NCBI GenBank assembly: GCA_026393175.1
Contig: JAPLAT010000133.1
Location: 1 to 36,140 of the forward strand
Reading direction: 5' to 3'
Length of the DNA stretch: 36,140 nt
DNA from: Pseudonocardiales bacterium
GTDB lineage: Bacteria; Actinomycetota; Actinomycetes; Mycobacteriales; Pseudonocardiaceae
Part shown: positions 16,464 through 22,613 of the stretch, piece after piece
Layout: every line of letters starts with the position of its first letter
Position numbering within the stretch: position 1 is the first letter of the stretch
The notes under the pieces: generated by a model
Seen by the model: only the letters and a program-made list of their open reading frames with translations
Database searches by the model: none
What the model was told of the DNA's origin: nothing
Translations under genes and position numbers: made by a program

Positions 16464-17582
16464 CTACCGTCCCCCGCGCAGCCACCAGCGCAGGGCCACG
16501 GCCGCGGGCAGCCACACCAGCACGACGGCCGGCAGCCCGCCCAGCGCCCACACCCCGAACAGCGCGAGCCCCCCGACCTCGACGGCGAACCCCGCCACGG
16601 ACGTGACGGTCGCCCGCGCCGGTCCGGTGATCGCCTCCTGCAGCCGGGCGTCGACGACCACCAGCACCACCCGGTAGAGGCCGTAGGCGACGGTGACGAG
16701 CACCAGGCCCGGCGGCTGTGCGAGGGCCGCGGCGGCGCCGAGCAGCAGCAGGACCGTCGCGAACAGGGCGGCGTGGACGAGGGCGGGCAGCCGGGCCGCC
16801 GCCCCCGCGGCGGCCGCGCCGAGCGCCCCGGCCAGGGAGATGCCGAGCATCGCCGGCGGGACGAGGTCCACGGGCACCGTCCACCCTGCGGCGAGCAGCG
16901 GGAAGTACTCCTCGATCGCGTCGAACCCGCCGACGACGGCCACCGCGACCACCGCCGCCCGCACGGCCGGGACGGCCGCGGCCTCGCGCACGCCCTGCCG
17001 GAGCGTCTCGAGGTAGCCGGGTTCCGCGTCGTCCTCCCCGTCGGTCGGGACCTCGTCCGGCCCGGGTGGTCGTGGATCGGGCAGCCGCACCGCGAGCAGC
17101 GCCGTGCCCAGCGCGACGCCGACACTGACGGCCCCGACCAGGCCGAACCCGCCCGCCGCGTACAGCGCGGTCGCGGCGACGGCGGCCGGCACCTGCGCGG
17201 CGAGCCCGGCGGCGGTCACCCAGCCCTGCACGCGGGCGTAGTGCCCGGCGGCGTCGAGCGCGGCGAGGCCGTCGTGCAGCAGCGCCTCCTGCGCACCGGA
17301 CTGCAGCGCGCCGCCCAGCCCCCACACGACGAAGCCTGCGGCGTACCCGGCGAAGCCCGGGAAGGCGATCCAGACGCCGAACGCGGCGGCCTGCAGGACC
17401 CCGGCGACGACGAGGCAGCCGCGGCGGGAGAACCGGTCGGCCACCGCGCCCGAGGGCACCTCGGCCACGATCCCGACCGCGCCCCAGATCAGGAGCAGCG
17501 CGGAGATCTGCGCGTCGTCGAGCCCGTTCGCGGCGAACAGCAGCGCGTAGAGCGGGTACAGGGGGACGGCGTCGGCCAGCAC
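16464..17582 (-). CDS. Major facilitator superfamily transporter
   Basis: A 372-residue protein with about 11-12 hydrophobic segments. The loop 2-3 motif reads SGAVADRFSRRGCLV, the usual MFS signature. A hydrophilic central loop (PDPRPPGPDEVPTDGEDD) separates the halves. GTG at 17582 is the only normal start downstream of the in-frame stop at 17637-17639, and the first membrane helix begins immediately, so the N-terminus is short. It is probably a drug or metabolite exporter; substrate unknown. No operon partner on this strand. Confidence 0.85.
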   Translation of the reverse strand: MLADAVPLYPLYALLFAANGLDDAQISALLLIWGAVGIVAEVPSGAVADRFSRRGCLVVAGVLQAAAFGVWIAFPGFAGYAAGFVVWGLGGALQSGAQEALLHDGLAALDAAGHYARVQGWVTAAGLAAQVPAAVAATALYAAGGFGLVGAVSVGVALGTALLAVRLPDPRPPGPDEVPTDGEDDAEPGYLETLRQGVREAAAVPAVRAAVVAVAVVGGFDAIEEYFPLLAAGWTVPVDLVPPAMLGISLAGALGAAAAGAAARLPALVHAALFATVLLLLGAAAALAQPPGLVLVTVAYGLYRVVLVVVDARLQEAITGPARATVTSVAGFAVEVGGLALFGVWALGGLPAVVLVWLPAAVALRWWLRGGR

Positions 17583-18735: not shown

Positions 18736-19332
18736 GTGCTCGATGAGGCGAAGCTCTTCGTGATGGCACAGGACGTGATCGTCGAGGTGGTCGGCCGCAT
18801 CCGGGCCGAGCACCGGCATCTCGTCCTGCCCGCTCTGTTCGCGGGGGAGCCGCGGCTCGCGCTGCCCGCCTACGTCGACGCCCTCGCCCGGGAGGACGCC
18901 TGGGTCCCGGACCTGCTGGCGGGGCGCCGGCCGGAGGAGGTCGGCGCCGACAAGTACGACGGCGACCTGCTCGGCGACGACCGTGCCGCCGCCTACGCGC
19001 GGCTGGCGACGGCGGCGGCCGCGGCTGCCCGGGAGGCGGCCGACACCGTCGTCCACACCCCCGGCGGCGACGTCGCCGCGGGCGCCTACCTGGAACTGCT
19101 GACGATCCGCCGCGCGTTCGCCGCGCACGACATCGCCATGCACCTCGGGTCGCGGGCGTGCCCGCTCACCGAGGAGCTGGCGCGGGGGCTGTGGGAGCGC
19201 ACGGAGCCCGACGTCGAGCGCTGGCGGGCGCGGGGCGTGTTCGGCCCGCAGTACGAGCCGATGCCGCCCGACGTCTCGTGGCGCGACCGGTTCCTCACCA
19301 CCGCGGGCCGCAACCCGCACGCGCTGGAGTGA
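18736..19332 (+). CDS. TIGR03086-like protein (MDMPI/DinB fold), divergent
   Basis: A 198-residue protein. The C-terminal part (ARGVFGPQYEPMPPDVSWRD, then RFLTTAGRNPHALE) matches the closing block of TIGR03086 proteins, and AAHDIAMHLGSRA replaces the usual HTWDLARATG segment. The N-terminal PCxGW motif is absent, so this is a divergent member, possibly with an altered metal site. GTG at 18736 is the first plausible start after the receiver gene, 50 bases upstream. No function can be assigned. A hairpin follows at 19347. Confidence 0.65.
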   Translation: MLDEAKLFVMAQDVIVEVVGRIRAEHRHLVLPALFAGEPRLALPAYVDALAREDAWVPDLLAGRRPEEVGADKYDGDLLGDDRAAAYARLATAAAAAAREAADTVVHTPGGDVAAGAYLELLTIRRAFAAHDIAMHLGSRACPLTEELARGLWERTEPDVERWRARGVFGPQYEPMPPDVSWRDRFLTTAGRNPHALE

Positions 19333-19346
19333 CGCGCGACCGTGCC

Positions 19347-19388
19347 CGTGCGTGGCGAGGAGTGCCCTGACCCTTCTCGCCACGCACG
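19347..19388. terminator. 13-bp perfect hairpin after the TIGR03086-like gene
   Basis: Arms CGTGCGTGGCGAG (19347-19359) and its complement (19376-19388) enclose a 16-base loop. It starts 14 bases after the stop codon. It may be a terminator, or another dispersed palindrome, given its likeness to the GTGCGAGG repeats. Confidence 0.6.
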
Positions 19389-19523
19389 ACCCACGGCGGG
19401 CGGTCCCGCCGACGCGGTCGCCGATGCTCCGGATCGCCGTCGATCCCACCGGTGACCGATGAGTCGCGCGCGTCGCCGTCGTCCATCCCGTGACCGCCCG
19501 ACATCCGCCGGAGGAGCGCACCC

Positions 19524-20099
19524 ATGGGAACGATCAAGGTCCACGAGTTCACGACCCTCGACGGGTCGATCGGCGCGCCGATGTGGACGTTCGCCCACCC
19601 CTTCACCGACGAGCAGTCCGCCGCGATCGGCGCGCTGACCGACCCCGACGGCGCGATCCTGCTCGGCCGCCGGACCTGGCAGGACATGGGCCCCGCCTGG
19701 TCGTCGCGGTCGATGGAGGACGACCCGGGCGTCGGGTTCTTCAACGACACCCCGAAGTACGTCGTCTCCTCCACGCTGACCGACGCCGAGGGCTGGGCCC
19801 ACTCGACCGTCCTCGGCGGGTACGACCCCGACGCGATCCGGGCGTTGAAGGACGGCGTCGACGGCGGCATCTACGTCAGCGGCAGCGGGACGCTGGTGCG
19901 CGCCATGCTGGCCGACGGCCTCGTCGACGAGCTGCACCTGTTCGTCTACCCGGTGGCGGTCGGCGAGGGACCGAAGCTGTTCCCCGAGGGCGGCGGGGAG
20001 CGCGCGCTGACGCTCACCGGCTGCGAGTCGTTCACCAACGGCGTCGTGCACCTGTCCTACGCCCCGGCGTCCGCGGGCGCGACCGGCGAGGCGGCGTAG
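19524..20099 (+). CDS. Dihydrofolate reductase-like / RibD C-terminal domain protein
   Basis: A 191-residue single-domain protein of the RibD_C/DHFR-like family. Motifs are KVHEFTTLDGSIGAP (5-19), DGAILLGRRTWQDM, PKYVVSSTL, the NADPH-binding IYVSGSGTLVRAMLADGL, and VDELHLFVYPVAVGEGPKLF. In actinobacteria many stand-alone members are reductases of unknown substrate rather than true DHFR. The ATG follows GGAGGAGCG by a normal distance. It lies upstream of, but is separated from, the NTF2-like/MarR operon, which has its own promoter. Confidence 0.88.
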   Translation: MGTIKVHEFTTLDGSIGAPMWTFAHPFTDEQSAAIGALTDPDGAILLGRRTWQDMGPAWSSRSMEDDPGVGFFNDTPKYVVSSTLTDAEGWAHSTVLGGYDPDAIRALKDGVDGGIYVSGSGTLVRAMLADGLVDELHLFVYPVAVGEGPKLFPEGGGERALTLTGCESFTNGVVHLSYAPASAGATGEAA

Positions 20100-20113
20100 C
20101 CCGGTCCCAGATC

Positions 20114-20132
20114 TATGCGTTTCGCATACACT
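20114..20132 (+). promoter_or_regulatory. MarR operator candidate overlapping a leaderless promoter
   Basis: The palindrome TATGCG-TTT-CGCATA (20114-20128) overlaps the -10 box TACACT (20127-20132), which is followed by six bases and GTG at 20139. A regulator bound here would block RNA polymerase. The operon's second gene is a MarR regulator, so autorepression is likely. Confidence 0.65.
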
Positions 20133-20138
20133 TCCGCC

Positions 20139-20519
20139 GTGGAACCCGAACTGGAGGCGGCGGTCGCGCTGTGGCACGCGGGCGTGAACTCCGGCGACCG
20201 GCGACGCTCGGCGGCCGCGGTGGGCGATCCCGTCGTCGTCCTCGGCCCGAAGGGCGCGGGCCCGATCACCCCCGACCAGTTCGCCGACTGGGTGGAGCGT
20301 TCCGGGATCCGCCTCGTGCCGCGCGCGTGGCACCCGGTCAGCGAGCGCCTCGTGGTGGTCGAGGAGGACGCGACCTGGCCGGACGACCACGAGCCCACCC
20401 GGGTGGCCACGGTCTTCCGGGTCGCCGGGGCGAAGGTGACGGCCGCGCTGCGGTTGCCCGACCTGGGATCGGCGCTGGAACTGGCCCACCTCTGCCACGC
20501 GATGGCCGCGTCCGAATGA
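20139..20519 (+). CDS. SnoaL/NTF2-like small protein
   Basis: A 126-residue protein of the nuclear transport factor 2-like fold (LEAAVALWHAGVNSGDRRRS, PVVVLGPKGAGPI, then DQFADWVERSGIRL). Such proteins are often small isomerases, hydrolases or orphan binding domains; no catalytic assignment is possible. GTG at 20139 is preferred to the ATG at 20115 because that ATG lies inside the palindrome and upstream of the -10 box. Its stop overlaps the ATG of the MarR gene (ATGA), so they are translationally coupled. Confidence 0.75.
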   Translation: MEPELEAAVALWHAGVNSGDRRRSAAAVGDPVVVLGPKGAGPITPDQFADWVERSGIRLVPRAWHPVSERLVVVEEDATWPDDHEPTRVATVFRVAGAKVTAALRLPDLGSALELAHLCHAMAASE

Positions 20520-20953
20520 CCGCGGGGCCGGGACAGCTCCTGTTCACCTTCGTGCGGCACTGGTCGCGCCGCGCCGCGACGGGGGACGCCACCGTCGCGG
20601 AGCAGGGACGGCTCGTCCTGGTGACCGAGGCGGTCCACGCCCTCGCCGCACGCGCGGAACCCGCGACCGTCAACGCCGTCGCCCGGGAGCTCGGCATCGA
20701 CCAGAGCGGGGCGTCCCGCCTGATCAGGAGCGCGGTCGAGGCCCGCTACCTGACGACGACCAGGGGACGCGGCGACGGCCGCCGGCGCGAGGTGTCCGTC
20801 ACCGACACCGGGGCGGCCGCGCTGCGGCACGCCCACGCCTGGCAGGAGGAGGTCTTCGCCGAGCTCACGGCGGGCTGGAGCGGGCGGCGCCGCGAGGACT
20901 TCCGCAGCGCGATGGCCGACCTCCTGAGCCGGTCCGACCGGCTCGGCCCGTGA
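20516..20953 (+). CDS. MarR-family transcriptional regulator
   Basis: A 145-residue winged-helix protein. The helix-turn-helix is VNAVARELGIDQSGASRLIR (about 54-73), followed by the wing TTTRGRGDGRRREVSVTDTG, and the ends form the dimer helices. MarR proteins are usually repressors released by small phenolic or oxidant ligands. It is coupled to the NTF2-like gene and likely controls this operon through the palindrome at 20114-20128. The ligand is unknown. The DNA beyond its stop codon carries a minus-strand riboswitch pointing toward it. Confidence 0.88.
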   Translation: MTAGPGQLLFTFVRHWSRRAATGDATVAEQGRLVLVTEAVHALAARAEPATVNAVARELGIDQSGASRLIRSAVEARYLTTTRGRGDGRRREVSVTDTGAAALRHAHAWQEEVFAELTAGWSGRRREDFRSAMADLLSRSDRLGP

Positions 20954-20984
20954 TCCGGACCGTCCGTGCGCCCGGCGGACCGGA

Positions 20985-21040
20985 TCACCCCGGCCCCCGC
21001 TCGGCGACGAACGCCATCTCCTGCGTGACGATCCCCGCGA
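20985..21040 (-). pseudogene. Possible relic of thiC (internal fragment)
   Basis: Immediately downstream of the TPP riboswitch on the minus strand, about 19 codons read GLAGIVTQEMAFVAERGPG then stop (TGA at 20985-20987). AGIVTQEMAFVAER resembles the AGxITxEMAFIAxR segment found well inside ThiC (about residue 110 in M. tuberculosis ThiC, from memory). There is no room for the rest of the gene, because marR occupies the opposite strand. This suggests that thiC was deleted, leaving its control element and a scrap of coding sequence. The match is short, so chance similarity is possible. Confidence 0.45.
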
Positions 21041-21147
21041 GTCCTCCCTACGCCGGCATGACCCGGACAGGTTCAGGCGGTCGGCGGCACCTGCTCCCCC
21101 GGTGGGGAGAAAGCCGCCCTCTCAGCCCGCTGCGGCGCGGGCTCCGT
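21041..21147 (-). promoter_or_regulatory. TPP (thiamin pyrophosphate) riboswitch, apparently without its gene
   Basis: Minus-strand sequence holds the THI-box signatures: GCCCGC hairpin then GGGCTGAGAGGG, a P3 arm GGCGGC paired with GCCGCC carrying an extra CTCCCC/GGGGAG hairpin, CTGAACCTG, and CCGGGTCATGCCGGCGTAGG at the 3' end. TPP riboswitches normally control thiamin synthesis or uptake genes. Here no thi gene follows: downstream lies only a short thiC-like fragment and then the antisense strand of marR. On the plus strand this DNA forms the region upstream of the P450 gene. Confidence 0.9.
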
Positions 21148-21252
21148 GGCTGTGCAGTTGTCGTCCAAGATCGCAACGGCCACGGTGGCGGGCCGACACC
21201 CGTAGCCTGGAACGGCCTGATCGGCGACTTCCACGCAACGGGCGGGAGCAGC

Positions 21253-22509
21253 ATGGTGACGACGGTCCGCGTCGATCTCGAACGGGAGTTCTCGGACGCC
21301 GGCTCCCGGGCCGACCCGGGCCGGGTCTACGCCCGGCTGCGCGACCTCGGACCGGTCCTGCGGTCCAAGGACATCCTCGGCGACGGGTTCCTCCTGCCTC
21401 GCTACGAGGAGGTCTCCCAGGTGATCAAGGACCCGCGGTTCGCCAGTGACCGCCGCAACGTCGGACGCCGATCCGTGGACCAGTGGTGGACGCCCGGGCT
21501 GTTGCGGCTGCTCGTCTCCAGCATGGTGCTCACGGACCCGCCGGAGCACCGCCGCCTGCGCAACCTCGTCCAGCGGGCCTTCACCCCGGCCCGGGTGGCA
21601 GAGCTCTCCGGACGGATCGACCAGATCACCGGGGACCTGCTCGACGCCGCCGCCGCGAAGCCGGTGATCGACCTCATGGCGGATCTGGCGCTGCCGTTGC
21701 CGCTGACCGTCATCGCGGAGATGCTCGGCGTCCCGCCGGCCGACCGCGACCGCTTCCGCACGCTCTTCGCCTCGCTGCAGAGCACCTCCGAGATGACGCC
21801 CGTCTCCTTCGTGCGCAACTACCCGCGCATGCGCAGGCTCACCGCGTTCCTGCGGGAGCTGGTGCGGCTGCGCCGCGAGCAGCCGGGAGACGACCTGGTG
21901 AGCGCGCTCGTCCACGCCGAGGAGGCCGGCGACCGGCTCGACGAGGACGAGCTCATCTCCATGATCTTCCTCCTGCTCTTCGCCGGCCACGAGACGACGG
22001 TCAACCTCATCGGCAACGGCGTGCTGGAACTCGTCCGCCGGCCCGACCAGCTGCAGAAGCTGCGCGACGACCCGGACCTCATCGGCACCGCCGTCGAGGA
22101 GATGCTGCGGTTCACCAACCCGGTGGGCGTCGTGGCGCCGCGGTTCGCCAAGGAGGACGTCGAGATCGCCGGTGTCCCGATCCCCCGGGGCAGCATGGTC
22201 ACCCTGCTGATCGCCTCGGCGAACCTGGACGAGGCGGCCTTCCCCGACGCGGACACCCTCGACATCACCCGCAGCCCGAACCGGCACGTCTCCTTCGGCC
22301 TGGGCACCCACTTCTGCCTCGGGGCCCCGCTGGCCCGGCTGGAGGCCCGCATCGCCATCCCCGCGCTGCTCCGCCGCTTCGACCACCTCGAACTCGCCGT
22401 CCCGGCCGACCAGCTGCCCTGGAGGCGCCACATCGCCCTGCACGGGGTGGAGCGACTCCCCCTCGTCGTCACGCCTGCGGGCGCGTCGGCCGGGCGGCCG
22501 GCGACCTAG
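21253..22509 (+). CDS. Cytochrome P450 (bacterial class I)
   Basis: A 418-residue haem monooxygenase of typical soluble bacterial length. Motifs are I-helix FAGHETTVN (about 243-251), EXXR in VEEMLRF (E283, R286) and haem loop FGLGTHFCLGAPLARLE with ligand Cys355. It resembles the CYP107-type group, but subfamily and substrate are not determined. Redox partners are not encoded nearby. ATG at 21253 has GGGAG (21244-21248) upstream; a TAGCCT box at 21203-21208 may be its -10. The upstream region overlaps the minus-strand TPP riboswitch. A tRNA gene follows on the opposite strand. Confidence 0.93.
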   Translation: MVTTVRVDLEREFSDAGSRADPGRVYARLRDLGPVLRSKDILGDGFLLPRYEEVSQVIKDPRFASDRRNVGRRSVDQWWTPGLLRLLVSSMVLTDPPEHRRLRNLVQRAFTPARVAELSGRIDQITGDLLDAAAAKPVIDLMADLALPLPLTVIAEMLGVPPADRDRFRTLFASLQSTSEMTPVSFVRNYPRMRRLTAFLRELVRLRREQPGDDLVSALVHAEEAGDRLDEDELISMIFLLLFAGHETTVNLIGNGVLELVRRPDQLQKLRDDPDLIGTAVEEMLRFTNPVGVVAPRFAKEDVEIAGVPIPRGSMVTLLIASANLDEAAFPDADTLDITRSPNRHVSFGLGTHFCLGAPLARLEARIAIPALLRRFDHLELAVPADQLPWRRHIALHGVERLPLVVTPAGASAGRPAT

Positions 22510-22525
22510 GGGGTCGGCGCCGACC

Positions 22526-22613
22526 TGGCGGAAGCGGAGGGATTTGAACCCCCGAGTGGTTGCCCACTGCTCGCTTTCAAGGCGAGTGCATTCGGCCGCT
22601 CTGCCACGCTTCC
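22526..22613 (-). tRNA. tRNA-Ser(UGA)
   Basis: On the minus strand the acceptor arms GGAAGCG and CGCTTCC pair, the anticodon loop is CTTGAAA with anticodon TGA, there is a long class II variable arm (CAGTGGGCAACCACTC), and the T loop GGTTCAAATCC is present. CCA is encoded at the 3' end (22526-22528). The size, 85 nt plus CCA, fits tRNA-Ser. Confidence 0.96.

Follow-up and report, generated by a model that had tools for sequence, protein, structure and literature searches.

A TPP aptamer joined to a short piece of thiC in a Pseudonocardiales bacterium, the probable relic of a lost thiC gene

Introduction

Bacterial pseudogenes and gene remnants left after the loss of a pathway are a familiar kind of genomic relic, and the described system closest to the locus treated here is the thiC TPP riboswitch (THI element, RF00059). 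One study deals with TPP regulons (PMC3766115), and another deals with the use of FAMP and AmMP, including a search for ThiY, TenA, and other proteins (PMC10470507). Among the papers listed in our literature searches, no title or abstract opening describes an aptamer left by a deleted thiC. Here, we analyzed a window of 36,140 nucleotides from a Pseudonocardiales bacterium (GenBank assembly GCA_026393175.1, contig JAPLAT010000133.1, positions 1 to 36,140 of the forward strand), where the minus strand carries a thiC-type aptamer with no more than about 15 thiC codons behind it. Considering the comparisons with relatives given below, the aptamer and these codons are very probably what is left of the 5' end of a thiC gene that has been lost, persisting as a nonfunctional relic.

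Results

The initial annotation of the window, made from the sequence alone, had placed a complete-looking THI-box aptamer on the minus strand, and a covariance search bore this out: RF00059 matched at 21156-21028 (minus strand) over the full model (positions 1 to 105 of 105), with 35.9 bits and an E value of 2.7e-5 in a scan of 701 bases. Together with the alignment to the thiC leaders of 43 genomes of the genus, this match defined a predicted aptamer at 21028..21156 (minus strand), of the type found in thiC leaders and with its P3 arm extended, whose core is largely intact in the covariance alignment and whose leader retains the SD-like AGGGAGGA. The 35.9 bits lie below the RF00059 gathering score, a curated threshold of 54.3 bits, and a scan of the whole window against Rfam at gathering scores returned a tRNA as its sole entry, with the aptamer at 21156-21028 absent. 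Taken by itself, the low score does not indicate decay, because 7 of the 40 genus thiC leaders scored (range, 32.3 to 61.5 bits) do no better, and 34 of the 40 likewise stay under the gathering score; the three leaders outside this count are those of G005 (48.7 bits), G062 (49.6 bits), and G017 (no listed score). Within its own subtype, the window aptamer is the weakest, at 35.9 bits versus 42.2 to 59.5 bits in the eight genus leaders with a long P3, a subtype delimited by our own cut of ≥46 nt separating CTGAGA from GAACC (51 nt in the window). By alignment score, the nearest of the 43 leaders were those of G018, G067, G062, and G083, with 80 to 84% identity over the aligned bases.

Comparison with the same leaders revealed a one-base deletion on a P2 strand at 21143..21144 (minus strand), where the window is short of one G and reads CGGAGC, versus the GGGAGC conserved in all 43. 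Farther upstream, at 21170..21175 (minus strand), alignments read by eye gave TGCGAT in place of a -10-like TANNNT, possibly reflecting promoter decay. The altered element makes a weak argument because TANNNT is missing in 15 of the 43 leaders too; it is present in the other 28 and in five of the eight with a long P3. Mispairing in P1 was discarded as evidence of decay, since the genus leaders displayed in the alignment also have an unpaired P1, and an MFE fold, which gave a z score of 0.20 for the aptamer, was set aside as well.

No thiamin-related gene stands directly downstream of the aptamer; instead, about 15 thiC codons are followed by a stop codon and then by DNA antisense to marR. The short frame behind the aptamer reads G-L-A-G-I-V-T-Q-E-M-A-F-V-A-E-R-G-P-G-stop, closed by a TGA read directly from the sequence at 20985..20987 (minus strand). 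That these approximately 19 codons resemble an internal segment of ThiC had also been proposed in the initial annotation, and two rankings within the window agree with it. The peptide LAGIVTQEMAFVAER came first among the 63,438 stop-free 15-aa windows of the six-frame translation when scored with a profile of the ThiC N terminus (41.5, with 33.3 for the next unrelated window). Of the 72,212 35-mers of the whole window on both strands, the one starting at 21038 agreed best, on average, with the thiC 5' ends of 43 congeners, with 26.63 compared to an all-window mean of 19.39 (standard deviation, 0.93) and to 24.33 for the first 35-mer outside the relic stretch. Its best match fell at one orthologous place in all 43 genus thiC loci, with 22 to 30 of 35 bases identical (mean, 26.0), and CTGAGA occurred upstream of thiC in every one of them; three of the 43 genes, those of G029, G034, and G075, are split in two by a frame or contig break. 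From the 35-mer and peptide comparisons, the relic of internal thiC codons was placed at 20996..21041 (minus strand), corresponding to approximately residues 92 to 106 of the 549-aa ThiC of G005, and its homology to thiC follows the order to be expected after a leader of the thiC type.

The identity of the relic rests on this repeated orthologous position and not on a single E value, because in a plain BLAST search of the 35-nt match a non-thiC stretch of G007 that overlaps the query scored 49.1 bits versus 48.2 bits for the best thiC. The stretch in question (contig C72, locus L043, 5015-5071) is 57 nt long, is 81% identical to window positions 21025-20973, and belongs to a genome without thiC. 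It was rejected as thiC, lying inside a long open frame without a ThiC motif, and the match was taken as chance.

The least probable of the readings weighed here is that the leader still functions as a riboswitch, controlling either a very short peptide or some other gene on the minus strand. The retained SD-like sequence speaks for such a role, but the head of the frame lacks ATG, GTG, and TTG, an in-frame ATG would yield a product of only 10 residues, and what follows downstream is the antisense strand of marR.

The distance from the end of the aptamer (past the AGGGA core) to the thiC piece is 7 nt in the window, compared to 262 to 301 nt (median, 289 nt) in all 43 relatives; therefore, thiC has lost its start codon here, together with about 90 codons. 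The predicted deletion joint between aptamer and relic lies at 21041..21044 (minus strand), with approximately 255 to 294 nt missing, the start codon included. On the far side, thiC sequence beyond approximately codon 107 of 549 (G005 numbering) was not seen at the locus. Functional thiC is absent at this place, where the start codon is gone and only about 15 of approximately 549 codons are left. An objection foreseen in the initial annotation, that relatives might carry a full-length thi gene behind such a leader and that the codons might not align to ThiC, turned out half true: the relatives do have full-length thiC there, yet the codons align to ThiC.

The relic is flanked by a MarR-family regulator gene at 20516..20953 (plus strand; PF12802, 36.9 bits) and a cytochrome P450 gene at 21253..22509 (plus strand; PF00067, 104.4 bits; 90% identical to a P450 of G005). 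Since both genes occupy the plus strand, the minus strand beyond the short frame runs antisense to marR, and the P450 gene has the leader in its upstream region, as the initial annotation had it. A riboswitch serving the P450 gene was rejected, being on the wrong strand; the P450 gene has its own -10-like element, TAGCCT at 21203-21208, resembling the TAACCT that G005 has in that place (by eye). Just past the marR stop, at 20950..20988, there is a strong hairpin without a T-run (48-nt fold, -29.5 kcal/mol on the minus strand and -27.7 kcal/mol on the plus strand), a probable 3'-end structure of marR.

The initial annotation had left two alternatives, of which the first, that thiC was deleted and its leader survives, is well supported by these comparisons, and the second, a TPP-responsive short or antisense RNA, found no positive evidence. 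Were the leader still transcribed, as a short RNA or as a read-through transcript antisense to marR, then marR and perhaps the P450 gene would follow thiamin status, which we regard as highly improbable. The largely intact aptamer core and the orientation antisense to marR are what such transcription could build on. Against it, neither a sigma-70-like promoter (by a consensus that may miss actinobacterial promoters) nor an intrinsic-terminator-like site was found at 20850-21350, the -10-like element is altered, a conserved P2 base is deleted, and the hairpin of -29.5 kcal/mol stands between relic and marR. Moreover, among the matches listed in a search for the joint across 60 genomes, its own included (12 candidates scored per genome), only the window's own spans the joint. 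A search of the GTDB collection for the exact fusion pattern, in which the window's own or near records were possibly left out, gave three matches, none of them such a fusion: two were Sphingomonas thiC leaders with thiC behind, and one was a Bradyrhizobium place not tied to a TPP aptamer. Even less is to be expected of a variant in which the orphaned aptamer is kept as a stand-alone RNA that binds TPP and, by reading through or terminating, adjusts marR expression from the other strand.

To place the relic within the thiamin metabolism of its host, we considered the assembly as a whole (5.5 Mb in 712 contigs, 90.45% complete, 5.66% contamination). The complete thiC that the initial annotation had suggested looking for elsewhere did not appear: neither PF01964 nor the ThiC of G005 gave a ThiC match at an E value of ≤10 in this approximately 90% complete assembly. 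The PF01964 search was positive in 13 of 14 control genomes, and the search with the G005 ThiC had no control of its own. Because about a tenth of the genome may be missing from the 712 contigs, an intact thiC could still lie elsewhere. The genome retains thiE, thiO, and thiG (profile-confirmed), thiD, a ThiY-like transporter protein (NMT1/THI5-like by profile, which we take to be ThiY), and TenA, a set that fits pyrimidine salvage. Besides the orphan aptamer, TPP matches precede thiO and thiG with a divergent thiE (58.3 bits), the ThiY-like NMT1 protein with its ABC partners (53.8 bits), and thiD (24.5 bits, degenerate). In the element before thiD (G000:C550, locus L081, 3212-3321), the P4/P5 part looks shortened by eye.

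Across the genus, thiC was found in 43 of 62 genomes and not found in the other 19. ThiY-like proteins (E ≤ 1e-60) occurred in 55 of the 62, namely, in 17 of the 19 genomes without thiC and in 38 of the 43 with it; the two thiC-less genomes without a ThiY match, G006 and G028, each consist of more than 1,000 contigs. The distribution looks as if every genome of the genus had retained one pyrimidine source or more, apart from these two, which are fragmented assemblies. Five genomes had thiC without a ThiY match, the counterpart of the 17 thiC-less genomes in which ThiY is present. All of the 34 TPP-like sites counted in thiC-less genomes other than the window's own (G000) had a thiO, ThiY, or thiD match behind them, with G028 as the exception in having a thiO piece only. 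Of these sites, 31 came from the RF00059 matches and three from weak DNA matches; the two sites of G084 (a near-copy of G024) and weaker sites in G023, G028, G074, G080, and others fall outside the count. In a tree built from the ThiY of 21 genomes (the window genome, better-scoring relatives, and G074), the window genome grouped with six others in a clade supported at 95/92; thiC is missing from five of the seven and present in two. The presence of thiC requires at least three changes on this tree by well-supported branches and four by parsimony, as read on one gene rather than on a species tree.

A separate observation concerns G028, where a TPP aptamer (contig C292, locus L040, approximately 1740-2043) is followed by only about 66 thiO codons. 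This locus has no thiG match within 7 kb and a divergent thiE match of 198 residues, and neither ThiC nor ThiY was found in the genome. The aptamer with its cut-off thiO is either a second leader with a truncated gene or an assembly fault.

The backbone of the window elsewhere matches contig C39 of G005, and the segment 19325-22516 beside a tRNA-Ser gene is not common to that contig. The tRNA-Ser(UGA) at 22526-22613 flanks this variable segment (window 19325-22613). The P450 gene of G005 (90% at the amino acid level) is common as DNA to window positions 21221-22512 only, the leader not being included, and the P450 is similar to Streptomyces plasmid genes. The G005 copy likewise has a tRNA close to its end, which by eye looks like tRNA-Asn. 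In the neighborhoods of the same tRNA in seven relatives, no match was found to the RibD_C, 134-aa, and MarR proteins of the window or to six thi proteins, and the only P450 match (34%) was in G017. A second copy of the tRNA end was not found in the window.

The arrival of the relic in a syntenic block together with thiC was also considered and is unsupported, the neighboring proteins having no convincing match near thiC. None of the relative loci fetched has thiC next to marR or to a close relative of this P450, and the MarR, RibD_C, and 134-aa proteins lacked any match in the surroundings of thiC in the fetched loci, which include nine thiC regions (the window's own excepted). P450s of approximately 42% identity lie about 6 kb from thiC in G075 and G025, which is by rough estimate near the chance level for so large a family, and weak neighbor matches near thiC comprise an MFS protein (33%) in G018 and a 31% match in G073. 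An MFS protein (PF07690) of G032 (contig C227, locus L030, 7387-8496) is 55% identical to the protein encoded at window positions 16464-17582. About 3 kb separate its gene from the thiC leader, and the gene is on the opposite side compared to the window and away from the place of the window's backbone. The flanks of the G005 thiC sit on two contigs of the window genome, C127 and C487, without adjoining thiC; the old thiC place, if the same as that of G005, appears to have been broken up.

Such a setting raises the question of an assembly artefact, that is, a chimeric contig that joined another organism's thiC leader to this genome. The assembly, presumably of metagenomic origin, is fragmented with 5.66% contamination, and the site lies in a variable segment adjoining a tRNA gene, both of which would suit a chimera. 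However, an artefact would need two joints within about 60 bases around the 15-codon piece, the leader bears a lesion of its own, and the donor thiC was not found in this genome. We therefore consider a chimeric origin quite unlikely and retain the loss of a resident thiC as the preferred reading.

Discussion

The loss of thiC may be reconstructed as follows. The ancestor would have carried thiC behind a TPP aptamer, as in the 43 thiC loci of the genus, and a deletion or rearrangement would then have taken approximately 255 to 294 nt between the aptamer and about codon 92, plus everything past about codon 107. The extent of the deletion was established by comparison with relatives; the order and mechanism of events are our reading of the same alignments. 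The gene would have become dispensable, most likely through pyrimidine salvage by the ThiY-like transporter, TenA, and ThiD, with the thiazole half still being made; the salvage genes are present in the genome, and flux through them is presumed. The remnant would persist between marR and the P450 gene, in the variable segment beside tRNA-Ser, without a present function, and the stretch at 20985..21156 probably does nothing now.

The locus presents the loss of thiC with its scar still readable, a regulatory leader having outlived its gene, and the lesions of this leader can be compared with the 43 leaders of relatives. Considering that no ThiC was found in 19 of the 62 genomes and that multiple changes fall on the ThiY tree, the genus is a fair system for studying the loss of vitamin biosynthesis, suited to asking how such a pathway is abandoned once salvage is in place. 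The locus also advises caution in annotation, in that a TPP-riboswitch match does not imply a regulated gene.

Compared with the thiC TPP riboswitch, the locus shares the aptamer core, the SD-like end, and the thiC codons behind, and its extended P3 is as in eight genus thiC leaders. It differs in lacking a start codon, the body of thiC, and one conserved P2 base and in its altered -10-like element; its score under the gathering threshold is a departure from the model but one shared with 34 of the 40 scored genus leaders. The aptamer with a cut-off thiO in G028 is similar in that a leader is kept and the coding part truncated, but G028 retains about 66 codons from near the beginning of thiO, whereas in the window the start of thiC is gone. 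Like the pseudogene remnants that follow the loss of a pathway, the locus has an absent gene, a fragment left behind, and salvage genes kept in the genome; unlike them, its survivor is mainly a regulatory leader, to which an internal island of 15 codons has been fused.
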